From a virus: a stretch of DNA of 64,000 bases. The notes under the pieces were generated by a model. It was given only the letters and a program-made list of their open reading frames with translations, did not search any database and was not told the DNA's origin. The first letter of the stretch is position 1, and each line of letters opens with the position of its first letter. The position numbers and the translations under genes were made by a program. This document shows, piece after piece, positions 4,574 to 64,000 of this stretch. The stretch covers positions 62,001 to 126,000 of the IMG/VR virus record IMGVR_UViG_3300042402_007915; one strand, 5' to 3'.

Positions 4574-7500
4574 TGGCTCTCAGCCCCAACCAGCTCCCCT
4601 ACGTTGTTGATGTATTCACACCGGTAGGAGAAGAGGACCTTTACAGTCGCAAGGACGTCTTCATCATTAATGACATTGGCTTGATCATCCCGCCAATGGC
4701 TATCTCTATCCAGAAGGAAGATCTTTCCTACACCTGGAAAATGCTGCGTTCTGCTACTACTACCAAGCTCCCCACTGGGCATGGAGCTATTCGTATTGGT
4801 ATCACGATTCCTTTTTTGAACAATCACATCTTGGACTTTCACCGACTTCTTGTTCAGATTCGGCATAACCCTTTTGTTTATATCGAAAACAGGTATCTGA
4901 GAGAGTCAATCATTCCCGAAGCCCCAAGTTCACAGAACATGGCCTTTGGCGTGGACTCTGTTAACATTGCAAGCATGAACGGAACTGCTGACGCTTGGGT
5001 TCTGCAGCTAAACCTAAGTTGGTTTAACTACGCACCCTTTGGACCGAACTTCCTATTCAGGCGAGAGTGGGAAACAGTAGACGTAAATGAAATGAACTTT
5101 GCAAGCTCCTCAGACCCTAACGGGGAAGAGGTTCCGGTAATCGTTCGTAAGAGTATTGGGTGGCATCTCCCTGACGAGTACGGCAGGAGAACCCCGCGGC
5201 CCTGTATTACTTCAATGCGTTATCTTAGGGATGATAGCTTTGGTACAAGCGACTCTGAGACAGGAGAGTCAACTCCAGTAAACGACTTCGACACCACAAT
5301 CCCTAGTCCGATGACTTTGATTGATATGGAGTATGTTCACAAGGGTTTCGAGTGGGACTTGCTGCCTAAGATTTCAATGATGAGTAGGTCAGCGCCTTCT
5401 GTCTTCCCTGCTTCCTCAAGGATCTACACACGGTTCTATAACTACCTGCAGAGAGACGCACTAAAGGAAAACTTTGGCATTGACCTTGAGGGAATGCTTA
5501 GGGACCAAGGCGGCAATGTGGATGGCTACTTTGGTGTTTGGGATCCAACCAGAGCTGACCGTCTCGAAACGTGGTCTCTGCATAATGGTCCAAGAATGCT
5601 AGGGGCCTCAGAAGAGGAGCGCAAGCGCGAGATCGCTATATGGGCTTCTGTAATGTCATCCGTCCGAAGCGCCATGTTTGATATGAACGGACCTCTTGTG
5701 GTTGGCTTCCATTTGTACAAAGAAGTACGAATGCCAGCAGAGTGGGCCAAGGCTCTTGGCGATATGATTCGGGTAAAGAACACAGCGTCCCAGATGGCCT
5801 TGGATGAGAAGATCAACAACCCACTCAGCCCTGAACATCAGATGGATTCAATTACCTACCAAGACCCAAGTACTGGGAACTGGTACGTCATGGAGAAGAA
5901 GTACGAGGGTGGCCCTCTTAGTTGGAAGCCAAAGCTCTTCTCTCAGACTCCAGGGAACCTCCAGGGCCTTTCAACACCCATTGGCGTAGGCGGACGTAAG
6001 GCTACGTTTGCCGAGGTCTCAGCCGTCTCTGGACAGGGCATAGCGACTCGAAACTTTCCTGTTGCAGGTTCAGGCAGGACACTCAAGTCTGGTGAGCTTA
6101 GGGCACACTTGGGCTTGGACTTGTCTCCGCTGAGCAAGAGTGAAAGCACTTACGTCTATCCGGTTAAGGATGGCACCGTACTTAAAACCACTCAATACGA
6201 AGCTCTTAAGGGTACTTGGTATTGGACTTCAGATAGTGGAGTCACTGAGCCCGTTAGTGCTAAGCATTTAAGTCGTCTTAAAGTCGTGTTTAAGACTTAT
6301 AGCGGCTTCTTCTTTGGAGAGGGTGTAAGCCCTGAGTTGTACCTTCTTGGAATTGGTGACAACTTTGTTGGTGCCCAAAGTTACCTCGAGAAAGGAAGGG
6401 TTGGCTCGGTTTACCGCTGCGACTATGTTGGTACTGGGTGGGAAGAGTCTGGTTGGTTTTGGATTAACGGACCTTCTTCTGGTAACACAATTACCATTCA
6501 GCATGGAGATGGAAGCGTCTCTCGGTACATGCACCTTGAATCAATTACCAAGGGGCTGAGGGCCGGAGTGCCTGTTAGTGTTAACACCGTTATCGGTGTG
6601 ATGGGGCAAAGTGGAACCTATGCTTCTAACAAAGTTGCAGACTTCCTAACGACGAATGGCACAAGTGAGATTCGGTCTCTTGGGGCGGCAAACGAAAACT
6701 TAGCGTCTTTTGGGATTCATCTTCACCTTGAGTACGAAGAGCCTTTCAGGAACTCCCTCTGTGTTCCTTCAAGGGTCTTCACTTATGAAGGTGAAGTGGT
6801 TGATCCGGGCAAGACCCCTTCAACTGTTCTAGTTAACCTAAAGCAGATCTACAAGCATTTTGAAGATAGGCAGGCTGTTACTATTCCGGAGGACTACGTA
6901 GCTCCCGAGTACAAAGAATACATCGCGGAAGCGACGACAAAGGCCATCTTGTCTGAAGACTCAACAAAGCCTAAAACGCAGACAGAAGAAGAACAGCTTC
7001 AGTCCGTGGCCCAAGAGCTTGAGGACTTGGTGGAAGACGGATGGGCTAACTACGGCGGGTCTGGTGGTTTGGGTAACGTCTATGAAAAGGCGGTCTTCTT
7101 TAATTTCCGTACCGACCAAGCAAGTGCTATCAAGCTTCCGGAGAACCTAGTTTACACCTTCCAAGACACGTTCCTTACGGGTGTTAGTGCTTCTTACGGA
7201 GCCATTCTCTCAAGGATCCCTCTGCTTGGGCACGAGTACCCAACGCTTCAGCACCTAGGTTCAAACGAACCGTCTTATTCTTTTGAGTTTGCAGCTTTGG
7301 ATACCGAAGAGACTCTGGACGGAGTAAGCTCTGGAGTTAGAAACCTTGAGTCAATGAGGGCAAGGCTTCAGAAGAATGCGCGACTCTTTAGAGAGGTTCC
7401 CAATAGCTGGTCCTGTCTCATGGATACATTTCTCACTCGCCTAATGGGTAGCTACAAGGAGACAGACGTTGTCGTAGATAGTCCAGGAGAAGGACTGCCT

Positions 7501-10500
7501 TCTCGCTTGATGATGAAGAAGAGAATGAACCTCAGCCGTACCGAGGTCGGAACTATCCAAGGAAACCCCGGCGCCTCTTTCTATACGGTAGAGGCAGAAG
7601 AGACAAACGTCTTTGAGACAGAAATCCTAAAGAACACTAACAGTCAGTTCACGACAATTGAGAATGCAAGGCAAACGGTACTTCATAAGCTCCTTAATCT
7701 TGAAGTAAAAGATGTGGAGAATGAAGCTCTTACACTGGCTATCGCTAAAGCATTAGCACCACAGGCCCTTGATCCTGCAAACCCAATGTATGGGATTATC
7801 GATTTAAGCAACCAATCTCTCCTGAACTCTGACCTGTATCTTCCAGGGCCAGAAGACAGTAGCTCCAAGCCAGACAACGGTAGTCTTGAGAATCTGGTTA
7901 GCTTTTTGATGGCAGAGCGAGCCAGCGGAGAAGTGTATAGCGTTCTAGAAGAAACAGAGCTAGGCGGCTTGCTGGGAGAGTTCCCCAAACAACCATTCGC
8001 AAAGGCTGAAGAGCAGTATAGTGCTGACAAAAACAAGAGCGGAATCGTAGTAGATTTGACGAAGCTTACAGGCGTGACTCTTAACGATAGCTTCTTAGAC
8101 ATCAAGGAACTGCTTGCTAACAACGGGGGTCCCGAGGGGGCAGCCGCTTTCCTGCAGATGATGGACCTCCATTTCCTCCTCAAGGCTCTCATTGAAAAGA
8201 GTTGCATTGTACTTGCAGAAGACAAGTCTAGAGCAAGCGGTACCTATCCAGACGGCGGTTTCACTGTTGAGGAGGCCAGAAGTGAGCTCTACCAAATGCC
8301 TATCACTCCAAGCATGTGGAGCCTGTTTACTGAATACGAAAGGGTCTGTGCACAAAGGTTCTCTCTTGATGTAAACGGCTTTGATGTCCTGGAGGGAAAC
8401 TCAGAGGGCGCAATCGCAACGCTAGAAAGCAATGCTAACTGGAATACCTTTGAGCCGGTAAAGGACGGAAGCGAAGCCTACGTCAACAAGCTTACTATCG
8501 AAGCTAGAAAGGCTGGTCTAAGTGTGACCAATCTTCACTTGGCCTTTGACACTGTAGAGATCCTAACCTCTTCTGCCGTAGAAGGAGCTGCTGATACTGC
8601 ACTCGGGTTTGCAAGCTACATTCCAGGCGCAAGCCTCGCTATCGACCGCAATGGAGAGTCTGAAGGTCTTCTCGGAACTCGTATGTTTGACGCAAGTGTA
8701 AAGAACGCACTTAGTGAAGCTCATGAGTTTTTGGTTGAGGGATACATTAACAGCATCTTCAAGTCTGCTATCGGTTTGACGGAGACCGCAAAGGCTTACG
8801 GCCAAGAGTTTATCTTTAGGCCTCTCCAAGCACTTGTTACTTCTTCGAGCACTGGATATTCGCCACTCGACAACCCTATCGGAGCATTCACCAAGCACGT
8901 CGAATCTTCAGGTTATTGGGGCTATGGTTTTCACCACTTCCTTGGTTTAGGGCCAAACACTGGCGGTCTCACTTTCTGGGCGGCAAACCCAGAGGACTAT
9001 GTCATCGTTTACGACAAGAGCTACGAAGCTGGTAGGGCGCAAGTAACTAAGCAAATCTACGAAGGTGTTAACGGTAGCATGGCCACAAATGCTTTTGCCG
9101 CAATTGCTTCTCTTGCCAATGGTTCTCTACAGCCTTTTGATAACTCTAACATCACACAGTGGAACTCTCCTTTGGAGTGGAAGGTTACACGGCCAGAAGA
9201 GAAGGACAAGGTTGACCAGCTCAAGAGAGAGTTCTCCTCTCTCGCGGACAACATCCTAAACAACTACAACCTGCTCAAGTTATTTGGTTTGGAGAAGTAC
9301 ACCAATGTCCTAAACAACGAACAGTACCTCGAAGGAACAGAGGCGTATCCAGACCTTAAGCTGCCAGCCCATCCTTTCTACGGAACGGTGAAAGATACCG
9401 GGCCCGACTTCTATTACTGGAACGTATACGAAGACGGACAGATGCTTGACGCACAGGTTGTAAAGAGTGTTGAAGCTTCGATGGATGAGGTCGTTAAGAA
9501 TGCGTATCAGAGCATGCGACGGTTCCAGTCGGGTGAAAAATACAACCCGGTTAAAGACCCAAGTACCAACTACTCCAAAGACGTAGCACAGGCTGCTCAA
9601 GGGGTCATTCTGTTTAACGCAGAAGCTACTGACGGGAACAGCAACAACCCTGCAAATAAGGGTCGTACTTCTATCAGCTTCTACGAATACGAAAAGACTG
9701 AACAGATTGCAGAGTTTGAGAATGCCCTCACTGGAGCAAACGGAAAAGAAATCCTGAAGAGGCATCCAAAGATTCCAAACCTGTTTGGTACTAGTGGCAT
9801 CTCAATCGGTAGCGAGTTCATGCCGGATAATTTTGCTCCCATTAAGCAGCAAGACCTGGAGAACCTAGAGAAGACTCTTGAGGAAACTCAGAGCATGTTT
9901 GGATCTCGAAGTGGATACCTGAAGGAGAAAGTGGGCAACCCTCTTACTCGAGGTCTTGAGGGAACCAACAGAGCCTCCACTCCAGACATCACCGGGCATA
10001 GCTGGACTATGGAATCGCTTCAGGGTCTTGCGAAGGAAAGCGCAAAAGACATCTTCTCCCAGAAGATGACCATGGCTAGAGCCTACCCAACCTTCAAGCT
10101 GTTCTTTGTAGAGGAAGATGAGATTGAAAACGCTCTGATTTCTCTAGACGACTTCCACTCGTACAACGGTGTGAAGGACTTCACCTTTGTAGAATCAAAG
10201 GATTCACCGGCCAGTGTAGCTGTCATTTCTCTCCAGAACGTCTCAGGAGTGCTTGACGGAACAAAGAGAAACGTCGTTACTGACTTGGACTACTTTGACC
10301 GGAAGATCACTAAGTCCCTTGAGAAGAACCAGTCGCACCTCCAAGGAGATGTGCTTACGGAAGGTACTGACTACGAACAGCCGTTTGGCTCTGTCGTTCT
10401 ACGTCCAGGCCTAAACGTACAGCTTAGAGTTGGCTATTCAAATGACCCCAAGAACCTCTCGGTCCTCCTCTCAGGTCGTATTGTCGATATCTCTTGGAAC

Positions 10501-13479
10501 AAGAATAACGACCTTGCTGAAATTGTAGTCCAGTCCTTTGGAACAGAGTTGATTCAGCAAAAGAAGGAAGACACCGAAGTCCATTACACGACTCACCACC
10601 TACTCTCGCATCTTATGCTGTCTCCAGAGTTAGTTCACTTTGGTCGGTGGGAGATTGGAAAGCTCTTCCAGACTGGCGAAAGCAAAGACGCGCGTATGGA
10701 CTTTACGAACTACGCCCGTGAGGGTTTGGCTGGTAAGTTTGCGTTCACTACTTGGACTAATGAGTTTCTTGCCAACAATACCTACATCCTTGTCGCTCTC
10801 GGTATGGCTTCTGCTGTAGCGTCATTCTTCCCTGCCGGTAAGCTCCTTGGAAAAGCAGGGGCGGCTGGAGCCGCTGCTGCAAGCGGAGCCGCAAACGCCT
10901 CTAAGGTTGGTAGGATGACAAGCTGGGTCAAAGAATTGCTCTTGAAGGCAGCAGACACCCTTCCAGCAAGCAAGAGTGCCAGCCTTGCTAGACTGTTCAT
11001 CACACCAAGCAAAGAGTTCAGACTAACACAGCTTATCGAAAAAGAGGCGGCAAAGGTTGCAGCAACTTCAGGACGGGGACTCGCACCAAGCATTCAAAAT
11101 CTAATCGCCCAAGGGAATATAAAGTTGGTCGAAAAGCTTTTGATGAAAGCGGTGAAAGAAGACACCGTTTACCTCAGAAGCTTGATTAAAGCGCTCAACA
11201 ACAAAGAGGCAAACGATGCTGTCGCCAGGGCCTATGCTAACTACTTTAGCGCAAGAAGCGCAGCAGTAACTGCTGGCTCTATCGATAACGCGATTGCAGC
11301 AGGAGTTCAGTTCAGGTCTGAGCTTCAGTACATCTACGGAAGCATGAAGGTTCTAGATGCACCTGCGCTCTCTATCAAAGAGGTTGGCAAGGTAATCTGG
11401 TCGAACAAAATGGGGGCGCTAAAGGCGGGAGGATTCTTTGCGGCTCGGACTGTAGGAGGAGGTCTAACGGCAGGTAGTGTTCTTGCTGCGGGTGCCGTGG
11501 GAGGTGACTTCCTTGCTATGACAGACACGGCCAAACGAATCCGAGACCAGTACCTCTACTATCTATCAAGGTTCCTAGCCGCAACTGAAGTGTCTCTGAT
11601 GGTTTCGCCTCAGGACGACAACATCTTTGCACCTCATCCGAAAGACTACATGGACCTTAAGATCGGAGGCATCCTTGAAGGCTTAAGCCGTACTGTCACC
11701 TATGCGAGCGCCTCTATCCTTCTCCAGGACAACGTAATCGCTAATGACCTTGCCAACCTTGTAACCCTTAAGGGTTTGTTTGATAAGCGAGTCGACCCAC
11801 GCGCTTGTCAGTACTCACTAAACAAATCCACTATCTGGGAAGTGTTCCAAGAGATGAGCTACAGACACCCTGGTTGGGTTTATGGCGCTCGTCCTTATGG
11901 TACCGCCTTCAGGTATACCATGTTCTTCGGAGTGCCTTCACAGCGGTACTGGAGCCAGCCAGGGAGTGATAGCTTTATCACTCGCATGAACCAGCTAACT
12001 CGTGTCCTAGAGAAAGAGGGACCTGCTAAAGAGTCCAGGGTAACAGAGCAAGAGTACAGAGAGCTGTACGGAGACAACCTGCACGGAATGACGATTGCTG
12101 ATTGGTATGCCATGAACCCAGGTATCAACCTTGAAACTGAGTTCAAGGGCGTTGCCATGAAAGAGTATCTGAAGGGAATGGAGGCTAGATTCGTGCCCTT
12201 CAGAAGACATCACCACCTGTCTGCTCATACCGACATCGTCTGGAATGGTTTGCTTTCGTCGGAGAACGCTGCATCAAATGCAATCAACGTTCATTACTAC
12301 GAGACTGGAAGCAACCCAGAAATCGCTGGTAACCAAGTAGTAAAGGCGCACAGCTTCATCCCGCCACATATGACAAGAGTTCACGATATGCCAATCTATC
12401 GTAACTGCAAGTCGGACAGGATGGCTCGTAGATACGCGCTAGGTGGCTTGATGGAGCAAATGAAGAAAACGTACAGAGGTGAAATCCTTGTCGTAGGTAA
12501 CGCTCGTATCCGCCCTTGGGATATTGCTATCCTTTGTGATAGCTACAACGACATGTATGGTCCGATTGAGGTTGACCAAGTGGTGCATACATTCAGCTAC
12601 GAGACTGGATTCGTAACCGAAATTAAACCAGCAGCAGTCGTCATCGCAAATGAGATTTCTTCTTGGCCGCTTATCGAAGCCGCAAAGATTGCTTCTCTTG
12701 CAATTGAGGACATCACTCTTAAAGCAAACTCAACCCGTAGCTCCAAAGCTTTAGCTAACGCTAACGGACTGAGCGCTCTCACCAAGGGCACCTATGGTGT
12801 AGATGCAATGCTTTCACTTGCTCGTGACTTCTCGCAGGAAGAGATAGTTACTCTTAAGAGCCGCTGGCTTTCTCTCTCTAGGAACTCTAATAGCCTCTAC
12901 AACGCTCTCGAGGAAGACCCAGAACTTGCTTCTGCCTTGAGTGAGTTGGATCCTGGAATCGCTGCGGGCTATGAGACTGCACTGGCTAGCGCTTCAGTCG
13001 CAGTGGCTCTGACTGGTACTGCTCTCGGGCTTGGTACTTTGGCTTTGGCACAAAAGAGCGGAATAACAAGCCTTGGTTCAAAGAACTTAATCACGGGTGT
13101 TGCCGGTTTGGGTACTTTGGTTGCGTCCGGTGCGCTTTGGAGCGCTTCAAACATGACGCCTCCGTCCCTAATCAGCCTCCTGGGTGGTTCAATCCTCTTC
13201 CTGCAAACCATGAAGGAGGAGAGCATGATGCTAATTCCGCTGGTAAAGAGTGGCCGCCCTATTGTCTCCGGTTTGTCTCTCAAGGACCCATCTATCATGT
13301 GGAAGAACTTCAAGGGTAATATCACCAGAGAATTTGAAGATACTTTTGACGGCCTGCAAGACCTGCAAACCCTCTTTAACAAGTACCAAACTGGTGCCTG
13401 GGAGAAGATTGTAGAAGCCTCAGAAGAGGCCTCATACGACAGACTGAAGAGCAACAGGATTGATACCAGTACGCCCTAG
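4573..13479 (+). CDS. Giant tail hub-like protein with M23 peptidase domain
   Basis: 2,968 residues. A zinc metallopeptidase M23 (LytM) domain has all expected ligands: HLGLD at 512-516, a central MHLES histidine near 655, and HLH at 716-718. This family cuts peptidoglycan cross-links, so the protein probably opens the cell wall during infection. First and last ligands are about 200 residues apart, against roughly 80-100 usually, so the domain carries an insertion. Around residues 1940-1980 a beta-rich stretch (LRPGLNVQLRVGY, then SGRIVDISW) resembles baseplate hub/late-control proteins. Hydrophobic Ala/Gly-rich segments occur near 2073-2105 and 2797-2880 and could insert in the membrane. The ATG overlaps the preceding stop. 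Probably the central hub or tail-tip protein; a tape measure function is possible but no long coiled coil is evident. Confidence 0.7.
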   Translation: MALSPNQLPYVVDVFTPVGEEDLYSRKDVFIINDIGLIIPPMAISIQKEDLSYTWKMLRSATTTKLPTGHGAIRIGITIPFLNNHILDFHRLLVQIRHNPFVYIENRYLRESIIPEAPSSQNMAFGVDSVNIASMNGTADAWVLQLNLSWFNYAPFGPNFLFRREWETVDVNEMNFASSSDPNGEEVPVIVRKSIGWHLPDEYGRRTPRPCITSMRYLRDDSFGTSDSETGESTPVNDFDTTIPSPMTLIDMEYVHKGFEWDLLPKISMMSRSAPSVFPASSRIYTRFYNYLQRDALKENFGIDLEGMLRDQGGNVDGYFGVWDPTRADRLETWSLHNGPRMLGASEEERKREIAIWASVMSSVRSAMFDMNGPLVVGFHLYKEVRMPAEWAKALGDMIRVKNTASQMALDEKINNPLSPEHQMDSITYQDPSTGNWYVMEKKYEGGPLSWKPKLFSQTPGNLQGLSTPIGVGGRKATFAEVSAVSGQGIATRNFPVAGSGRTLKSGELRAHLGLDLSPLSKSESTYVYPVKDGTVLKTTQYEALKGTWYWTSDSGVTEPVSAKHLSRLKVVFKTYSGFFFGEGVSPELYLLGIGDNFVGAQSYLEKGRVGSVYRCDYVGTGWEESGWFWINGPSSGNTITIQHGDGSVSRYMHLESITKGLRAGVPVSVNTVIGVMGQSGTYASNKVADFLTTNGTSEIRSLGAANENLASFGIHLHLEYEEPFRNSLCVPSRVFTYEGEVVDPGKTPSTVLVNLKQIYKHFEDRQAVTIPEDYVAPEYKEYIAEATTKAILSEDSTKPKTQTEEEQLQSVAQELEDLVEDGWANYGGSGGLGNVYEKAVFFNFRTDQASAIKLPENLVYTFQDTFLTGVSASYGAILSRIPLLGHEYPTLQHLGSNEPSYSFEFAALDTEETLDGVSSGVRNLESMRARLQKNARLFREVPNSWSCLMDTFLTRLMGSYKETDVVVDSPGEGLPSRLMMKKRMNLSRTEVGTIQGNPGASFYTVEAEETNVFETEILKNTNSQFTTIENARQTVLHKLLNLEVKDVENEALTLAIAKALAPQALDPANPMYGIIDLSNQSLLNSDLYLPGPEDSSSKPDNGSLENLVSFLMAERASGEVYSVLEETELGGLLGEFPKQPFAKAEEQYSADKNKSGIVVDLTKLTGVTLNDSFLDIKELLANNGGPEGAAAFLQMMDLHFLLKALIEKSCIVLAEDKSRASGTYPDGGFTVEEARSELYQMPITPSMWSLFTEYERVCAQRFSLDVNGFDVLEGNSEGAIATLESNANWNTFEPVKDGSEAYVNKLTIEARKAGLSVTNLHLAFDTVEILTSSAVEGAADTALGFASYIPGASLAIDRNGESEGLLGTRMFDASVKNALSEAHEFLVEGYINSIFKSAIGLTETAKAYGQEFIFRPLQALVTSSSTGYSPLDNPIGAFTKHVESSGYWGYGFHHFLGLGPNTGGLTFWAANPEDYVIVYDKSYEAGRAQVTKQIYEGVNGSMATNAFAAIASLANGSLQPFDNSNITQWNSPLEWKVTRPEEKDKVDQLKREFSSLADNILNNYNLLKLFGLEKYTNVLNNEQYLEGTEAYPDLKLPAHPFYGTVKDTGPDFYYWNVYEDGQMLDAQVVKSVEASMDEVVKNAYQSMRRFQSGEKYNPVKDPSTNYSKDVAQAAQGVILFNAEATDGNSNNPANKGRTSISFYEYEKTEQIAEFENALTGANGKEILKRHPKIPNLFGTSGISIGSEFMPDNFAPIKQQDLENLEKTLEETQSMFGSRSGYLKEKVGNPLTRGLEGTNRASTPDITGHSWTMESLQGLAKESAKDIFSQKMTMARAYPTFKLFFVEEDEIENALISLDDFHSYNGVKDFTFVESKDSPASVAVISLQNVSGVLDGTKRNVVTDLDYFDRKITKSLEKNQSHLQGDVLTEGTDYEQPFGSVVLRPGLNVQLRVGYSNDPKNLSVLLSGRIVDISWNKNNDLAEIVVQSFGTELIQQKKEDTEVHYTTHHLLSHLMLSPELVHFGRWEIGKLFQTGESKDARMDFTNYAREGLAGKFAFTTWTNEFLANNTYILVALGMASAVASFFPAGKLLGKAGAAGAAAASGAANASKVGRMTSWVKELLLKAADTLPASKSASLARLFITPSKEFRLTQLIEKEAAKVAATSGRGLAPSIQNLIAQGNIKLVEKLLMKAVKEDTVYLRSLIKALNNKEANDAVARAYANYFSARSAAVTAGSIDNAIAAGVQFRSELQYIYGSMKVLDAPALSIKEVGKVIWSNKMGALKAGGFFAARTVGGGLTAGSVLAAGAVGGDFLAMTDTAKRIRDQYLYYLSRFLAATEVSLMVSPQDDNIFAPHPKDYMDLKIGGILEGLSRTVTYASASILLQDNVIANDLANLVTLKGLFDKRVDPRACQYSLNKSTIWEVFQEMSYRHPGWVYGARPYGTAFRYTMFFGVPSQRYWSQPGSDSFITRMNQLTRVLEKEGPAKESRVTEQEYRELYGDNLHGMTIADWYAMNPGINLETEFKGVAMKEYLKGMEARFVPFRRHHHLSAHTDIVWNGLLSSENAASNAINVHYYETGSNPEIAGNQVVKAHSFIPPHMTRVHDMPIYRNCKSDRMARRYALGGLMEQMKKTYRGEILVVGNARIRPWDIAILCDSYNDMYGPIEVDQVVHTFSYETGFVTEIKPAAVVIANEISSWPLIEAAKIASLAIEDITLKANSTRSSKALANANGLSALTKGTYGVDAMLSLARDFSQEEIVTLKSRWLSLSRNSNSLYNALEEDPELASALSELDPGIAAGYETALASASVAVALTGTALGLGTLALAQKSGITSLGSKNLITGVAGLGTLVASGALWSASNMTPPSLISLLGGSILFLQTMKEESMMLIPLVKSGRPIVSGLSLKDPSIMWKNFKGNITREFEDTFDGLQDLQTLFNKYQTGAWEKIVEASEEASYDRLKSNRIDTSTP

Positions 13480-15909: not shown

Positions 15910-17484
15910 ATGGGAACCTTCTTACACGCAAAAGCGACCCGGTCTTTCCCTTCTCAAAGCAAAGCCGCTCGTGACATAACCTCGAACGTTAACGTTCTCT
16001 ATCAAATTCTTGCCGAACCCCTTGAGGCTGTCAGGTCCAACGAGATCTCACTGCATAGGGATGCTTTTCTCTTCAAGAACTGGTTGGAAACAGCGACTGT
16101 TTACCAAGTGCGAATCCCTACAGACGAGGCGCCAGATAATTCGCGAGGTGTTATCACTTATCCGGTCGTAACAGCCCAAGAAGGAGAATACGTCTTCACC
16201 CGAGTAAACACCGTAGAGGAGTTGCTAAAGTCACACGCTAGGGCGCTGAGGGATTCCAATTTGTTCCAGTTAGAAGAGGGGGCCTTGTATGATCATGAGC
16301 CCTTAGGCATCTGGTCCGAAGAACCTCCCGATAACTTTGAACCTACAATGATTTCGGTTGACCATGTCTTTGAGTCCCCTATGAATCTTTGGGTCAACGT
16401 CTTAGGCGGAGAAGTGCCGCTCAAGAACAGGGAGCCCCTTGCCCCTGGTAATCCTTGGGTTAAGATTGTAGGCTACAATGAAAGCTGGATTTCCGTAGAA
16501 GAAATAATTCCGCTCAGGTCCTTTGAAGCAATACAGAGTAAACATGCTTATGCCGAAATCGTTTCAATAGAGCACTCAGAGTGCGGCTACCTTAACTTTT
16601 CGGTTGGGCCTAGACCTAACAACACCGTTCCAAAGCGCCACCCATTCCTCACGGTACATGGAGAGAACAAGAGTTCGCCGCTCTATCTTCACATCGAAAA
16701 CACTGAAGACGGAGCGTTAACCCTGTACTACTTCCTAAAGACTGCCAATGACTTTGTAAACCTGGATTCGTACCTTGATGCTTACGAAGAAATTGCTCGG
16801 CAAAGAATCGAAACAGAAGGGTCGCTTGCTCTTCAGGACTATTTTGTACATCCAGAAACTGGGCACCTATACGTGTCAGCGGCAGAAGAACTTCTCTTCA
16901 TTATTGAACCGACGCTGCCCGAAGTGCAGTCTCTTAACCTAAGAGAGTCTATTAGTTATCTTTCTAGCCTAACGGCAATCATGGATGAGCAGTACGTTTG
17001 TCCAGGAGATACCGTAAGAGGAAAGACTAAGCTTGTAAATACTGCGGCTCCGATTAACAAGGTCATCATCTCCCTTATCGATCCAAGTCTTCAGGTCTAC
17101 TATCTGCAATCAGACTTAAGTTGGGATACTACTTTGTACGCTTTTGAATACGACAGGGTAACGGCAGATGCTTGGCAAGACATTCACTTCGATGTGACGG
17201 CAGAAAGTGAGGGACAGTGGGAGGTCTATGTTGAAGCATTTACCGACCGTTATATCACCCTAAGTGGAACCGCTATCGTTGCAAGTCGTACAACGGACGT
17301 GGAAGTGCTCTCTGTGTTAAGCCATAGCGGGATGGTTCTTATAGACGGAAATGAGATTGCGTTGATTGACGGAACTGATGTAACCGCCTACGAGCCACTT
17401 AAGCTTGCTTGTTTGTTTGACACGGATAACAATTCAATCTATGTAGCCGATGAGTTTGACACCATTGAGGTGGCCCATGAGTAG
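15910..17484 (+). CDS. Baseplate/tail protein, unknown
   Basis: 524 residues. Starts one base after the J-like stop (TAA-A-ATG). The N-terminal 100 residues are helical and mention no motif; the remainder is beta-rich with repeated short strands, and the last third (DTVRGKTKLVNTAAPINKV onward) looks like an immunoglobulin-like sandwich that could bind a partner. No signal peptide or transmembrane segment. Position after the wedge protein suggests a wedge-to-fibre connector, by analogy only. Confidence 0.65.
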   Translation: MGTFLHAKATRSFPSQSKAARDITSNVNVLYQILAEPLEAVRSNEISLHRDAFLFKNWLETATVYQVRIPTDEAPDNSRGVITYPVVTAQEGEYVFTRVNTVEELLKSHARALRDSNLFQLEEGALYDHEPLGIWSEEPPDNFEPTMISVDHVFESPMNLWVNVLGGEVPLKNREPLAPGNPWVKIVGYNESWISVEEIIPLRSFEAIQSKHAYAEIVSIEHSECGYLNFSVGPRPNNTVPKRHPFLTVHGENKSSPLYLHIENTEDGALTLYYFLKTANDFVNLDSYLDAYEEIARQRIETEGSLALQDYFVHPETGHLYVSAAEELLFIIEPTLPEVQSLNLRESISYLSSLTAIMDEQYVCPGDTVRGKTKLVNTAAPINKVIISLIDPSLQVYYLQSDLSWDTTLYAFEYDRVTADAWQDIHFDVTAESEGQWEVYVEAFTDRYITLSGTAIVASRTTDVEVLSVLSHSGMVLIDGNEIALIDGTDVTAYEPLKLACLFDTDNNSIYVADEFDTIEVAHE

Positions 17485-58234: not shown

Positions 58235-59521
58235 TTAAAATGCTTTCTTGGGTGGGTTTGAAGATCCAAGCGCGTATACGTTGGAGAAGTTGCGAAGAGT
58301 ATTTCCCTGTGCGTCTTGCCATAGAACAGCATAGCCATTCTGTGAACCGCCGCTATAGGAAAGATGAGGAGTATGTGCGTAATGCATAGGTCCAGCAAAG
58401 CAACCCTGCTCCATGATCAAGAGCCTGTCGTAAACGAACTTAGAAATCTTGTGGGTGTGTCCGATAACAACAGTATCAATTTCCTCTTCGGGATACCTTG
58501 AGCTAAAATAGTTGGCGGTCTTGTGTGCCAAGCTTGCAATGCCGCCCGAACCCCTGGTGTGAGGATGGGCAAAGATTGCTTTACCTACCTTACAGTACCA
58601 AGAATCTCGAAGGTCGAAATGCACGTTGTCGAAGTCATGCTTCTTAACAAGCTTCCCAGCAGCATTGATCTCTTCACCATTTGCAATACGCCCAAGAGCA
58701 GAAGGATTGAAATAGCTTACCGTATTCTTGTTGATACCGTTCTCAGAGAGTACACGCGCAACGCGGCTTTCGTGATTACCCTCGGTAAGAATAACCTTCT
58801 CAAAGTTCTCGCTGCACCACTTCACAAGAGCAAAAGCGCAACGGTATTCATCTACAATAGTAATCTCACGACTCTTCGAATAAGAAGAAGCAGAGTATCC
58901 CTCAAGGATATCTCCATTCAAGACGAGAACACTAGCGTCTGTATGGAGGGAAAGAGTCTCCTCAAGGAGATCTACCCTTGCAAACGGGAAGTGAATATCT
59001 GAAACGGAGACAATCTTGCGAACAGGTTCTCCTGTCTCATCCCCAATGGTTACCATTGGGTTGGGGTACTTGTTCTGAATGGTCTCGATCAGATCGAATG
59101 CGTTGGTTTCTGACAATGGCGACTCCTTCTTCGAAGGCTCAGTAGACGTAGCAACTACCGGGGTGGGAATAGGAGTCTTCTTCGTAGGAATGAAGACTCT
59201 GCTCGGGCCCTTAAACTGGGCAATGCGATTACCAGCCCTGTTAACGGGGAACGTATAGTTGGCAGTGTTTCGAATAGCCTCTACAAAGTAGGGGTCATTT
59301 CTATGACGGCTATACCAACGAGAGATTGCCTTCTCAGAACGCTGGCTTCCAATAGCACGCAGAGCAGCTACGGCCTTGTCCATCGGCTGGTTTTCATCTC
59401 CAGTGCCAGCAAGACCAAAGCCATACCAGCCCCTTTCCCAGACCTTATACTTCTCTGCGATGAGCATAACAGCAAAGGCCTCGTCATCTGACCAAGGATC
59501 GCCGAATTGATGTTTGTTCAT
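58235..59521 (-). CDS. Metallophosphoesterase (Mre11/SbcD superfamily)
   Basis: 428 residues. Metal motifs occur in order: D175-x-H177 (SVSDIHFP), G203-D204 (NGDILEG), G248-N249-H250-E251 (EGNHESR), IFAHPHTRG and GHTH. The superfamily includes nucleases and phosphatases. Residues 1-110 form a separate helical domain (WSDDEAFAVML and KAISRWYSRH), which resembles a DNA-binding helix bundle. Start overlaps the polymerase stop (ATGA), which points to DNA end processing or proofreading; the latter is speculation. Confidence 0.8.
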   Translation of the reverse strand: MNKHQFGDPWSDDEAFAVMLIAEKYKVWERGWYGFGLAGTGDENQPMDKAVAALRAIGSQRSEKAISRWYSRHRNDPYFVEAIRNTANYTFPVNRAGNRIAQFKGPSRVFIPTKKTPIPTPVVATSTEPSKKESPLSETNAFDLIETIQNKYPNPMVTIGDETGEPVRKIVSVSDIHFPFARVDLLEETLSLHTDASVLVLNGDILEGYSASSYSKSREITIVDEYRCAFALVKWCSENFEKVILTEGNHESRVARVLSENGINKNTVSYFNPSALGRIANGEEINAAGKLVKKHDFDNVHFDLRDSWYCKVGKAIFAHPHTRGSGGIASLAHKTANYFSSRYPEEEIDTVVIGHTHKISKFVYDRLLIMEQGCFAGPMHYAHTPHLSYSGGSQNGYAVLWQDAQGNTLRNFSNVYALGSSNPPKKAF

Positions 59522-61974
59522 TGTTTACCTCCATAGATTGTTATTTCTCTAGCAAGGATTTCAGCAGTTTGGTTCTCTTCGTCTTCGTCAGAGTCTGACG
59601 ACTTGATGAGGCCCGAGACCTTTAAGATCATCCCAGATTCTAGTTTTACGTTTGGGTACTTAGCTTCTAGCTTCTTTACGCCTTCTGCGAAAATCAGTAC
59701 TGTGGCAAAAGACGTGCCGTCTTCGATTTCAATAAGACCCATGCGACTACCCTTCTTTGTAGTCTTAATCTTTGCTGATACAATTGCGCCCGCAAAAATA
59801 CCTCTATCGTCAGGTCTTGCATTGATCAAGAATTCTGCTTCTGGGTAGATAGTGTGGGCCGGATGTTTGCCTAAGTAGCAGCCAATAGCTTGTCCCTGTT
59901 CAAGCTGTTCCTTGAGAGAAAGCTGAGCGTTATAAGGCCTAACTGGGAAGGTAATGAAATGCGGCATCTCTTTATGTTTAAGCTCTGGCTTGCGTCTGAG
60001 GTCCTTATGTTCTTCGAGGAAGGTTTCTTCTTCGAGAGTAAGAGGCGCGGCTTTCTTTAGCGACTTTTGATGCCGAAGCTTGTCGCGTCTTTCAATGAGT
60101 GGCAATACGATAGCCATCTCTTTGTCTCTCTCAAGGATCTCAGCTTCTCTTTCATGATAGGCAATCAGATCAGGCTTGTAAGCAAAGATCAGCTCCATCA
60201 TCTCTAACAAGTGTTCTCTGTAATGACCGAAGCAATCCATAGCCCCACTCTGTACAAGAGCAGTGAAAACCTTAGTGTTCATTTTAGTCTGGTTTGTTCT
60301 GTTCATGAAATCTTGAAGGTCTTCAAATGGCTTAGATCCTCGGATCTTTAAGATGTGGCTGACTGCAGAGCCGCCAACATTCTTGATTCCATTCAAACCA
60401 AACCTAATACATGTTGGATTGATAATCTCAAAATGGTTTCCTGACTCGTTGATGTCTGGGCAAAGCACGTCAATATCAAACTGACGCGCTTCATCAATGT
60501 ACTCCATCACTTTAACACGCCACATCTTTGGCGACATCATTCTAGATCCAACAGACATCAGAGCACAGAAGTACTCAACGGTGTGGTTCGCCTTCAGGTA
60601 GGCACACACATAAGACAAGTACGAATAGGCAACGGAATGGGAGGCATTGAACAAGTAGTCCGCACAACCAATGATAATGTCCCACAAACGGGAGACTTGC
60701 GCTTCAGAAAGGCCGTACTTCGCACAACCAGCAAAGAACAGAGGCTGTAGCTTCTCTAGGTACTTCTTGTCCTTCTTACCTACAGCCCTTCTTGCAGTAT
60801 CGGCGTCCTGGAGAGAAAGGCCTGCAACTTCAGTGAAGAGCTTAATGAGCTGCTCTTGGTAAACAAGAACGCGCCTAGTATTACTCCACATATCTGCGAT
60901 AACCGCAGGAATTTCAGGATCGGATTCTCTATTCAAGTAACGATCTAAGAAGCCTGCCGACATTGGACCTGGACGTACAAGCGCCGAAATGTCCGAAAGC
61001 TCAGCAACGCTTGTTGGTTTAGCTTTCATTACGGCATCTCCAATAAGAGATGAGGTCTCGAACTGAAAGACGCCGGTAAGCAGCCCACGAGCAAAGAGAG
61101 CGTAAGTCCTCTTGTCGTTGTCAGGGATGTTGTAGATGTCGATAGAGAGGCCCTTACGCTTTTGTATAAGTTCAACAGCTACCTGGAGTACGTCCAAGGT
61201 CTTAATGATCAAGAAGTCGTACTTGATTAAACCAAGCGCCTCAACTTCCTTCATATCAAACTGGGTAACCCGAAGCTTATCTGCAGTCGTATAAGTCGGC
61301 GCCACTAAATGTACAGGGAAATCTGAAATGATCATACCAGCAGGATGAACACCATTATTCGAAATCATACCATCTAGGTTGTAAGTGAAATCGAACCACT
61401 CAGAATACTTGGCGTCTTCTAGTAACTCAGGATGTGCAGGATATCCCTTCTCCGGGTTCCCCTTGACAACTTCCTTAAGGGTTGGCTCTTTACCAAACAA
61501 AGGGTCAGGAATCTTTGCAAGGATTTCATTTCGAACAGCAAGATGAGAGTCCTTGGCTTTGTCTCCAAGTTCTTTGTCTGGCATCCAGATAGAGAAATAT
61601 CTTTGAGTTAAAGAGCGAGGCCCAAACTTACCGTGAGTACCAATGTTGGCGACGTTATCGATGCCCCAAAGGTTGACAATGTGGTCAATGAGCTTTGTCC
61701 GACCACTCTCGGAAAAGTCCATATCGATGTCTGGAGCTGCTCCACCGATAGTGTCACTTCGTCCTTGCTGAAAATCAAAATCATCAGTTAGCCCCAAAGT
61801 AAATAAGAGTAAACTGTTGCGCTCGTTAACCTTAAAGAATAGACTCTTCTCTAAACAAAAGAGTAATCTCTCGACGTCTGCTTCTGTGGTAAATTCGAGT
61901 TCGTAATCTAGAAAGTCTTTATCCACAAGAGCGACTCGTTCCTCTAGCAGCGAAGAACGTATCTTCTCTTTCAT
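59518..61974 (-). CDS. dnaE: DNA polymerase III alpha subunit (DnaE-like), no PHP domain
   Basis: 818 residues from ATG 61974, after AAGGAGGT; frame continues to 62064 but through the opposing gene's start. Catalytic acids: PDIDMDF at 81-87 and the third in LIKYDFL. HPAGMIIS, VRPGPMSAGF and YQEQLIKLF are C-family polymerase features, and the C-terminus has an OB-fold (IVSAKIKTTKKGSRMGLIEI). Bacterial DnaE has about 280 PHP residues and more before this point; here only 80 precede the active site. No 3'-5' exonuclease is fused. Main replicative polymerase of the phage, working with the primase-helicase. Confidence 0.93.
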   Translation of the reverse strand: MKEKIRSSLLEERVALVDKDFLDYELEFTTEADVERLLFCLEKSLFFKVNERNSLLLFTLGLTDDFDFQQGRSDTIGGAAPDIDMDFSESGRTKLIDHIVNLWGIDNVANIGTHGKFGPRSLTQRYFSIWMPDKELGDKAKDSHLAVRNEILAKIPDPLFGKEPTLKEVVKGNPEKGYPAHPELLEDAKYSEWFDFTYNLDGMISNNGVHPAGMIISDFPVHLVAPTYTTADKLRVTQFDMKEVEALGLIKYDFLIIKTLDVLQVAVELIQKRKGLSIDIYNIPDNDKRTYALFARGLLTGVFQFETSSLIGDAVMKAKPTSVAELSDISALVRPGPMSAGFLDRYLNRESDPEIPAVIADMWSNTRRVLVYQEQLIKLFTEVAGLSLQDADTARRAVGKKDKKYLEKLQPLFFAGCAKYGLSEAQVSRLWDIIIGCADYLFNASHSVAYSYLSYVCAYLKANHTVEYFCALMSVGSRMMSPKMWRVKVMEYIDEARQFDIDVLCPDINESGNHFEIINPTCIRFGLNGIKNVGGSAVSHILKIRGSKPFEDLQDFMNRTNQTKMNTKVFTALVQSGAMDCFGHYREHLLEMMELIFAYKPDLIAYHEREAEILERDKEMAIVLPLIERRDKLRHQKSLKKAAPLTLEEETFLEEHKDLRRKPELKHKEMPHFITFPVRPYNAQLSLKEQLEQGQAIGCYLGKHPAHTIYPEAEFLINARPDDRGIFAGAIVSAKIKTTKKGSRMGLIEIEDGTSFATVLIFAEGVKKLEAKYPNVKLESGMILKVSGLIKSSDSDEDEENQTAEILAREITIYGGKQ
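61912..61938. repeat. Duplicated junction repeat, copy A (inside dnaE 5' end)
   Basis: Twenty-four of 27 bases match 63615-63641: identical AAAGTCTTTA, six partly different bases, then identical AGAGCGACTCG ending. On the minus strand it encodes the ERVALVDKDFL element of DnaE. Both copies are followed downstream by CCTTGGGGG(G)AAAATG of a plus-strand gene. Confidence 0.75.
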
Positions 61975-61993
61975 GCAACCTCCTTGGGGGAAA

Positions 61994-63589
61994 ATGTCTG
62001 CCCATACCGAAATTTCATCTTCAGAGCTGCCAGTTTTGCCTGACGATGCTCGAGTCCTTCGCAAGCTGCGTCGTATTCAAGACGGTGGCGAGATTAGGTA
62101 TGCAGATATTTTTGCTGGGTGTGGTGGTATTTCTCTTGGTTTCTTGACAGCTGGGTTCAAGCCGGTCGGATCTATTGAGTGTGACCCCTGGGCAGCCAAG
62201 TCACACGGAACAAACTTTGGACCCCATTCTGCAGGGGCTGATCGTCCGGCACTTCATATCCCACGCGATGCTGTTACTGAAACCGCTGAAAGCTTTTTTG
62301 CTGACCTCGGGATTAGTGGCGAGACAGAAGATCAAATAGATGTATTGGTTGGCGGCCCACCTTGCCAAGCATTCGCTCGTGTCGGCAGAGCCAAGCTTCG
62401 AGAGCAAGCTCGCCTTCGAGATGAAGTCACAGCGGACCAAGCCTTTCTTGTAGATGGACGTGTAAACCTTTGGGAGCGTTATGTTGCATTCATTAGGGCT
62501 ACAAAGCCAGTAGCTCTTCTTATGGAAAATGTCCCAGATATCCTGAATCATGGTGGGGCTAATGTTGCAGAGCTTGTAGCCAAAAGCCTTGAGAAGGAAG
62601 GGTATGACGTTGTATACACTCTGCTAAACGCTGCTTGGTATGGCGTACCGCAGATAAGAGAACGGATGATACTTGTCGGCTTTCACAAGGCAACAGGTAT
62701 CAGGCCTCGATTCCCAACACCTACGCACTACCTTGATTTGCCGTCTGGTTATGTCTCTCTAAGGAATACTGCACGCCGAGTAATCAAGAGCGAAGGCTCA
62801 GATTATCACCGCTGGGTAGATGGGCCTTCAAGCTTAGCAATGCCTGCAACTTCCGCTGCCGATGCTTTAGCTGACCTTCCGGTCTTCTGTGCGCAAGATC
62901 TTTTACACTCTGGCAAGTTGCGTCGTGGCCCTAAAGATTTATCCGAACAGATTGATTACACAACAAACGAACCAGCTACTTCCTACTCTAGGTTAATGAG
63001 GGAATGGTTCGGGTTTGCAACGAAAGCGGCGACTAGCCATGTCTTCCGCTACTTACCACGAGACTACAAAATCTTCGCTGAAATGAGAGCCGGGTGGGAG
63101 TACCCAGCGATTCATGCTCATGTAGAGCACAAAATTACAGAGTGGCTAGCTGAACGTAAACGCTGTGGTCTCTCTACCGACCTCTCAGATCCTGAAGTGA
63201 ACAGCTTTGTTACGAGTTGGCGTCTATCCTCTGATCCCCACAAGTTCCCAAACAAGTGGTGGAAGATGGAAGCCAACAAACCCGTACGAACTTTGATGGC
63301 TCACCTTGGGAAAGACTCCTACTCACACATTCACTTTGACTCTGAGCAAGCTCGGACTATCACAGTCCGTGAGGCGGCTCGGCTTCAGTCTTTCCCTGAT
63401 GGATTTGTATTTGAAGGCTCAATGAATCCTGCGTTTAAGCAAATTGGTAACGCTGTGCCGCCGTTATTTGCTTACGCTATTGCACGAGCGATGCTAGAAT
63501 GCTTAGCAGCCCCTACTGTTCCCGACATGCGGGTTGAGTTGCTTGGGTTATCCGCTTCGCAGATTACGACAACTCGGGGAACTCCATGA
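61994..63589 (+). CDS. DNA (cytosine-5) methyltransferase
   Basis: 531 residues from ATG 61994 (MSAHTEISSSELP), after TTGGGGG; an in-frame ATG at 61973 would overlap the dnaE start. Motif I is DIFAGCGGISLGF (SAM binding), motif IV GGPPCQAFA with the catalytic Cys, motif VI MENVP, motif VIII QIRERMILVGF and motif X QIGNAVPPLFAYAIA; all are present, so it should be active. The variable region between VIII and IX chooses the DNA target. No matching restriction gene is nearby, so it is a solitary enzyme, most likely for protection from host restriction. Short flanking repeats suggest a later insertion. Confidence 0.95.
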   Translation: MSAHTEISSSELPVLPDDARVLRKLRRIQDGGEIRYADIFAGCGGISLGFLTAGFKPVGSIECDPWAAKSHGTNFGPHSAGADRPALHIPRDAVTETAESFFADLGISGETEDQIDVLVGGPPCQAFARVGRAKLREQARLRDEVTADQAFLVDGRVNLWERYVAFIRATKPVALLMENVPDILNHGGANVAELVAKSLEKEGYDVVYTLLNAAWYGVPQIRERMILVGFHKATGIRPRFPTPTHYLDLPSGYVSLRNTARRVIKSEGSDYHRWVDGPSSLAMPATSAADALADLPVFCAQDLLHSGKLRRGPKDLSEQIDYTTNEPATSYSRLMREWFGFATKAATSHVFRYLPRDYKIFAEMRAGWEYPAIHAHVEHKITEWLAERKRCGLSTDLSDPEVNSFVTSWRLSSDPHKFPNKWWKMEANKPVRTLMAHLGKDSYSHIHFDSEQARTITVREAARLQSFPDGFVFEGSMNPAFKQIGNAVPPLFAYAIARAMLECLAAPTVPDMRVELLGLSASQITTTRGTP

Positions 63590-63614
63590 TGTTCGTAAGC
63601 ACTGCAACACTTAA

Positions 63615-63641
63615 AAAGTCTTTACTCGCAAGAGCGACTCG
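63615..63641. repeat. Duplicated junction repeat, copy B
   Basis: Matches 61912-61938 at 24 of 27 bases. The minus strand reads ERVALASKDFL, without a start codon and with a stop just before, so it looks like a remnant of a dnaE 5' end. It overlaps a perfect 7-base inverted repeat with a one-base centre (AGAGCGA-C-TCGCTCT, 63631-63645). The stretch 63590-63661 otherwise holds only the ribosome site for 63662. Confidence 0.75.
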
Positions 63642-63661
63642 CTCTTATCCTTGGGGGGAAA

Positions 63662-64000
63662 ATGGCTACATACACTCGAATCTCCTCTGACGTCCCGATG
63701 GACGGACGGAGTCTCAAGATTACCGACGTAGCAGAAGGCGATCAAATTGACATCGTTGATGCTCTGGGAAAAGGAGCGCGACATATGCGTTTCTACTTAA
63801 CGGATCCTGCAGACACTATCTCGTATCGTATCAACAGCCGAATCGCTACTTCAGTTAAAGAAGACAAGACTCGTATTGAGCTCAGCTCAGTACATGCTTA
63901 CTTGGGCATCTCAAACAAGGTTGAAATTGTTAATTGGTCTCAGGCTAGCTCTTTCCCTGTATACGAAGAGGAAGGCGAAGCAATTGCGATTGATGACATC
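63662..64000 (+). CDS. Unknown protein, 3' partial
   Basis: First 113 residues; the frame runs off the window. Starts MATYTRISSDVPMDG with the ribosome site TTGGGGGGAAA, nearly the same leader as the methyltransferase gene. Beta-rich, acidic, without signal or membrane segments. Plus-strand orientation away from dnaE suggests the beginning of another late/structural operon, but no family is recognised. Confidence 0.7.
   Translation, partial: MATYTRISSDVPMDGRSLKITDVAEGDQIDIVDALGKGARHMRFYLTDPADTISYRINSRIATSVKEDKTRIELSSVHAYLGISNKVEIVNWSQASSFPVYEEEGEAIAIDDI

Follow-up and report, generated by a model that had tools for sequence, protein, structure and literature searches.

A probable gene-acquisition scar between divergent dnaE and P3 genes in an uncultured phage with a split DNA polymerase III alpha

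We analyzed a locus in a 64,000-base stretch of phage DNA (the window), which spans positions 62001-126000 in a virus record of 147,225 bases. The locus contains the catalytic half of a split dnaE gene (dnaE-C), a methyltransferase gene and gene 63662 (P3). The features, in window coordinates, are listed below.

59518-61974, minus strand: dnaE-C, encoding the catalytic half (818 amino acids) of a split DNA polymerase III alpha, whose N-terminus carries an extension of ~77 amino acids specific to the lineage
61899-61906: GTTCGTAA, tentative outer end of the duplicated stretch; the same 8-mer stands at 63591-63598, co-linear with copy B
61909-61941: copy A, dnaE-C codons 12-22 (ERVALVDKDFL), the functional copy; its residues are conserved in the dnaE-C of relatives
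61975-61993: divergent junction of 19 bases, with ribosome-binding sites read in the sequence for dnaE-C (AAGGAGG, minus strand) and the methyltransferase (GGGGGA, plus strand)
61982-61996: CCTTGGGGGAAAATG, junction element beside copy A
61994-63589, plus strand: orphan C5-cytosine DNA methyltransferase, 531 amino acids from this start (PF00145, E = 1.2e-54)
63591-63598: GTTCGTAA, tentative start of the dnaE remnant, one base past the methyltransferase stop codon
63612-63644: copy B, putative decayed dnaE remnant with no start codon, encoding ERVALASKDFL on the minus strand
63630-63646: perfect 8+1+8 palindrome AAGAGCGA-C-TCGCTCTT, overlapping copy B
63649-63661: second copy of the junction, CCTTGGGGGGAAA, the leader of gene 63662
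63649-63664: CCTTGGGGGGAAAATG, junction element beside copy B
63662-64000, continuing beyond the window end, plus strand: P3, 136 amino acids, beta-rich, ancestral divergent partner of dnaE-C

The methyltransferase appears intact. The open reading frame call (61994-63589) is correct, with an in-frame ATG at 61973 as an alternative start. The protein matches the PF00145 profile at both ends with no stops (186.4 bits against a curated cut-off of 22). FAGCGG, PPCQ, ENV, QIRER and GNAVPP, which we take to be the catalytic motifs of C5 methyltransferases, were read directly in the protein. P3 had no match in PHROG, Pfam or GenBank phages and none with E <= 0.001 in a fold search, and a plain protein search gave none (0 of 14 candidates). 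Its predicted structure is an all-beta model.

We found that a stretch of dnaE-C is repeated on the far side of the methyltransferase. Copies A and B are identical at 28 of 33 bases. A preliminary description of this DNA had reported 24 of 27; the best ungapped 27-mer reproduces that figure, and the match extends beyond it. As had also been described, CCTTGGGGG(G)AAAATG follows both copies, forming the start of the methyltransferase after copy A and the start of P3 after copy B. The spacing from repeat to junction is 36 bases longer at copy A than at copy B. In the dnaE frame the copies have five base differences. Two are synonymous (GAA/GAG and CTA/TTA), as the preliminary description had it, and the other three fall in two codons (GTG to GCG and GAT to AGT); reading the sequence confirmed the two peptides that it had given.

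The repeat is real and well beyond chance. A BLAST search within the 147,225-base record with a 91-base query recovered copy B with E = 4e-5. In 60 simulated 147 kb genomes of equal size and dinucleotide composition, no match to the copy A 33-mer had fewer than 10 mismatches, compared with 5 for the real match (6 in the register used by the script, which was shifted by one base). Local alignment of ~100 bases around both copies scored 62.5, and the maximum in 2,979 random window pairs was 43. There was no third copy in the whole record in a search allowing up to 10 mismatches, no match in a nucleotide search of GenBank phages, and no occurrence of the exact degenerate pattern in genome_contigs. 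One candidate third copy, at window 15915-15944, matched copy B at 22 of 30 bases (8 mismatches) and was not accepted. It is slightly better than the best such match in 40 simulated genomes (21/30, 9 mismatches), and it sits in the start of gene 15910 (no match in GenBank phages) without a junction. It is probably a chance match.

Copy B is predicted to be non-functional. Alignment of 16 dnaE-C N-termini from the clade shows three residues here to be invariant, the R and both aspartates of VDxDFL. Copy B has lost the first of these aspartates and has no start codon. Homology between copies A and B ends or becomes gapped on both sides of copy B. Candidate outer ends are the shared GTTCGTAA on one side and, on the junction side, CTCTT with short remnants. 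If these outer ends are real, which we propose tentatively, the insert would be almost exactly the methyltransferase coding sequence and the duplicated target would be ~98 bases.

The preliminary description had proposed that a methyltransferase entered an ancestral divergent pair, dnaE and gene 63662, and left a dnaE remnant. Comparison with relatives lacking the methyltransferase supports this proposal. An abutting divergent dnaE-C/P3 pair is present in 10 distinct phage contigs, nine identified by HMM (L019, L020, L022, L024, L071, L072, L073, L074 and L081) and one by position (L076, with a P3-like gene at the same place that falls below the P3 profile). Of the first five relatives found with the dnaE 5' region, P3 lies divergently and directly upstream in L019, L020, L022 and L024, and not in L023. 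A further search, in which the N-terminal extension of dnaE served as query, gave 22 loci, five of them on the same contigs as L019, L020, L022, L023 and L024. Eighteen are distinct when near-identical sets with the same ORF coordinates and residues (L074/L075, L079/L080 and L088/L089/L090) are counted once. The P3 profile picks out a divergent P3 beside dnaE in 10 loci of the full set of 22, or 9 once the set is reduced to the 18 distinct ones. Seven of the 18 have small same-strand genes upstream of dnaE instead, and one (L084) is cut at the contig end. The junction of L019/L070 has 20 bases, compared with 19 here (CAT-N20-ATG), and contains CCTTGGAGTAAATA; that of L019, CAT-ATTGTTCCTTGGAGTAAATA-ATG, is similar in make-up to the junction in the window.

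The insertion target is thus uninterrupted in 10 distinct loci, and the comparison shows the ancestral state: dnaE-C leftward and P3 rightward, diverging from a short junction. All relatives that include the dnaE-C 5' end are distant, sharing 34-45% identity with the window in that region, and the closest contig, G001, ends inside dnaE. A plain protein search for close dnaE relatives found none (0 of 3 candidates), and a primase profile found no relatives among 54 candidates in genome_contigs.

It is highly improbable that the methyltransferase was ancestral at the dnaE/P3 junction and was lost in the relatives. The distance of the relatives, and a codon use near the phage's own, would allow it. 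However, the methyltransferase is absent between dnaE-C and P3 in every P3-type locus, each loss would have had to restore the abutting pair, and copy B records a duplicated target. The gene was also absent from the rest of the 10 P3-type records (0/10; controls, this record and that of L003, 2/2 positive), although most of the relatives are fragments or of unknown completeness, so that absence at the junction counts for more than absence genome-wide. Five records searched earlier were likewise negative (0/5); among them was L023, the sole record of the co-directional group searched for the methyltransferase.

We examined codon use of 61994-63589 in frame, a comparison that the preliminary description had suggested. 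The gene is only mildly atypical, ranking fourth among the 38 genes of the window (z 3.9; GC3 0.424). Codon use can thus not serve as strong proof that the gene is foreign, and the mild atypicality gives no strong sign that it came recently from a foreign source. Together with the 15% divergence of copy B and its deletion, it fits an acquisition that is not very recent. The most codon-atypical of the 38 genes encodes a 2,968-amino-acid virion-type protein (window 4573-13479) that has a stretch of peptidase M23 and an endolysin-like match in PHROG.

The repeat might also be a promoter or operator before two rightward genes, with a palindromic copy B that could bind a repressor, and not a scar. 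Both copies do precede rightward genes, copy B overlaps the perfect palindrome AAGAGCGA-C-TCGCTCTT, and CCTTGGGGG resembles a motif, CCTTGAG, that recurs in the genome. Nevertheless, we consider a regulatory site very unlikely. The preliminary description had held that relatives with the element upstream of many genes would speak against a scar. In this record the element does not stand upstream of many genes; there are two copies in 147 kb. Copy A lies inside dnaE, is conserved coding sequence, and is not a perfect palindrome. The record has 35 listed perfect palindromes (31 distinct) with arms of at least 8 bases and loops of up to 3, so the one at copy B is weak evidence for an operator. 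By eye, the 10 relative junctions have no such common element, and the locus has no sigma-70-like promoter site beyond chance. Finally, membership of the repeat's junctions in the CCTTGAG family was rejected, as the motif profile gives them scores of 11.2 and 4.2, below the threshold of 13.

The CCTTGAG motif is itself a candidate phage-specific signal. CCTTGAG alone occurs 136 times in the record (~29 expected), and a bipartite form, CCTTGAG followed by ~10 mostly purine bases and GGCGC, occurs 29 times (~1 expected). Examples, in record coordinates, are 14066(+), 14777(+), 15417(+), 16825(-), 26001(+) and 88574(-). In the first 40 kb, 8 of 15 occurrences of the bipartite motif lie between genes; in the window, 10 of 10 lie inside genes. 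The motif is hardly present in the eight relative loci in which it was counted.

Based on these results we suggest that 61899-63661 is very probably a gene-acquisition scar, formed when the methyltransferase was added at the ancestral dnaE/P3 junction with duplication of the target. Here the dnaE-C/P3 junction contains the methyltransferase gene from its start codon through its stop codon. On the far side of the gene is a partial copy of the target, consisting of dnaE codons 12-22 without a start and then the P3 leader. The gene could have entered by illegitimate recombination or repair synthesis, duplicating ~100 bases of target; alternatively, the homologous junction of a relative could have been brought along with it. 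A gene set into the junction would cost P3 its leader, and a duplicated junction would solve that problem. Each junction copy would have supplied a leader, CCTTGGGGG(G)AAA-ATG, and both the methyltransferase and P3 would have kept a translation start. The redundant piece of dnaE would have decayed, through loss of the start-codon segment and substitutions.

The preliminary description had the methyltransferase arrive as a cassette with its own junction. Acquisition holds up; for the second junction, duplication of the target and a donor phage fit equally well. In one sub-case of the scar, the dnaE/methyltransferase junction of a co-infecting related phage replaced the 5' part of the resident dnaE, and copy B is the old end of the resident gene. 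We regard this as possible, at somewhat less than an even chance. Five differences in 33 bases, as between copies A and B, might also separate two related phages, and phage genomes are commonly mosaics made by illegitimate recombination. Nothing decisive speaks against this origin, but decay of a redundant copy explains the divergence equally well.

The methyltransferase appears to act alone, since it is the only PF00145 gene in the record and the record has no gene for Z1 (PF10593) or HATPase_c_3 (PF13589). Thus, this phage has no complete restriction-modification or Mza-like system. In viral_contigs we found only two relatives of the methyltransferase, in L003 (57% identity) and L004 (45%). 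Both adjoin genes for a MutL-like (GHKL) ATPase and Z1, matching MzaB and MzaC of PADLOC, and in L004 there is also a vsr gene beside the relative. The best-ranked match in a phage collection had 31% identity over 86%. Self-protection is likely, as the two best relatives are located in restriction-type islands of the MutL/Z1 kind. Judging from these neighborhoods, the enzyme probably methylates cytosines of the phage's own DNA against a host restriction-type system of MutL-like ATPase and Z1.

The gene resembles the orphan C5 methyltransferases ("morons") of other phages in being a lone PF00145 gene between unrelated phage genes with no restriction partner. It differs from them in that a duplicated, decayed piece of dnaE marks the insertion, and in that its best relatives are in MutL/Z1 islands and not in named phages. 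Neighborhoods of MORC/paraMORC MutL-like GHKL ATPases with a cytosine methylase and Vsr are described as restriction-modification systems (PMC2292703). The methyltransferase relatives in L003 and L004 are in such settings, whereas the phage has the methyltransferase alone. In the named Mza system, mzaA is a sigma factor (PMC9523054), and we therefore term the L003 and L004 islands Mza-like without assigning them to Mza.

The split of the polymerase is the more surprising part of this locus. The N part of dnaE, with a PHP domain, is a separate gene outside the window at record 127906-129165 (L009:5907-7166). In Pfam, dnaE-C matches the finger domain, HHH_6 and positions 100-259 of PF07733 (260 positions). 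PF07733 matches exactly two genes in the record, dnaE-C and, at positions 2-102, the N part. In a comparison with solved structures, a profile of the N part aligns with Thermus aquaticus DnaE as far as residue 464 and a profile of the C part with residues 460-962, which places the split just before the catalytic PDIDxDF. The PHP, NTPase/palm, finger and HHH regions are complete only with both halves together, and no one polypeptide has them all. No family A or family B polymerase was found in the record (controls were positive).

We found that the split is shared by relatives. The N part is a separate upstream gene in 17 of the 22 loci, and also in L022. Split DnaE is present in L019, L020, L022, L023, L024, L071, L072, L074, L076, L078, L079, L082, L085 and L088. 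At more distant dnaE loci (e.g., L029 and L035), the two parts directly adjoin each other in tblastn coordinates. Here the halves are ~4 kb apart, and the methyltransferase, P3, P0004 and a tail-fibre-like gene lie between them on the other strand. Several opposite-strand genes also lie between the halves in L020, L022 and L072, including one for a 2,294-amino-acid protein in L022. The virion-type genes between the halves in P3-type members indicate that the methyltransferase joined an already existing cargo position.

The ~77-amino-acid extension of dnaE-C is conserved in the clade, and it had no match in 50,697 phage records. It is modelled as helices in a dnaE-C model (pTM 0.50) that has low confidence around the split. 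By inspection, the N parts end within ~15-40 amino acids of the FLNPGR region and the extension has no recognizable intein block; Pfam scans of both halves, in this record and in L019, listed no intein domain. We also considered the extension as a degenerate duplicate of the GS-motif region of the N part. The register was suggestive, but hhalign gave a probability of 0.2% (E 0.29), which does not support this origin.

dnaE-C seems to be a favored target of mobile elements. In the nearest relative it contains a group I intron (L011:707-986; Rfam RF00028, 48.2 bits, gathering score 50) near the active-site ADYxFNxSHS region. There is a probable intein in dnaE-C at L023:9950-11560, with a weak Pfam intein match below the cut-off. 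Another probable intein is at ~8960 in L024, where the dnaE-C frame breaks at PPD-C with ~1 kb inserted.

Splitting of Pol III alpha as such is not new. In group 2.2 jumbo phages, Pol III alpha is described as split into an NTP-binding N part and a C part that binds Mg2+ and template, minimal in form, encoded by distant genes and found beside a family B polymerase (PMC7824862). The N/C division is the same here; unlike those proteins, the N part here keeps PHP, and the halves are ~4 kb apart around virion-type genes. In the open-licence literature we did not encounter a PHP-bearing split DnaE with virion-type genes between its halves. Cyanobacterial DnaE is described as split by an intein and encoded by two genes (PMC3919608). 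Here there are likewise two genes, but by inspection no intein-like tail or head at the split point. The cyanobacterial protein is split at another place than the phage protein.

Taken together, we think the chances are about even that the clade replicates with a two-subunit DnaE, a PHP half and a catalytic half with the ~77-amino-acid stretch as a docking extension, as its only recognized polymerase. The gap between the halves would be a cargo site that exchanges host-recognition and anti-defence genes, with the methyltransferase as a scarred later arrival. Independently of this reading, the locus reveals an uncultured phage clade with its replicative polymerase split inside the palm domain and unrelated genes in between, and assembly of a split C-family polymerase becomes testable. 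The scar itself is an unusually readable case of a phage gaining a single, probably anti-restriction gene with no neighbor lost. The duplicated junction would serve as leader for both the old and the new gene, and the relics tell which side was copied.
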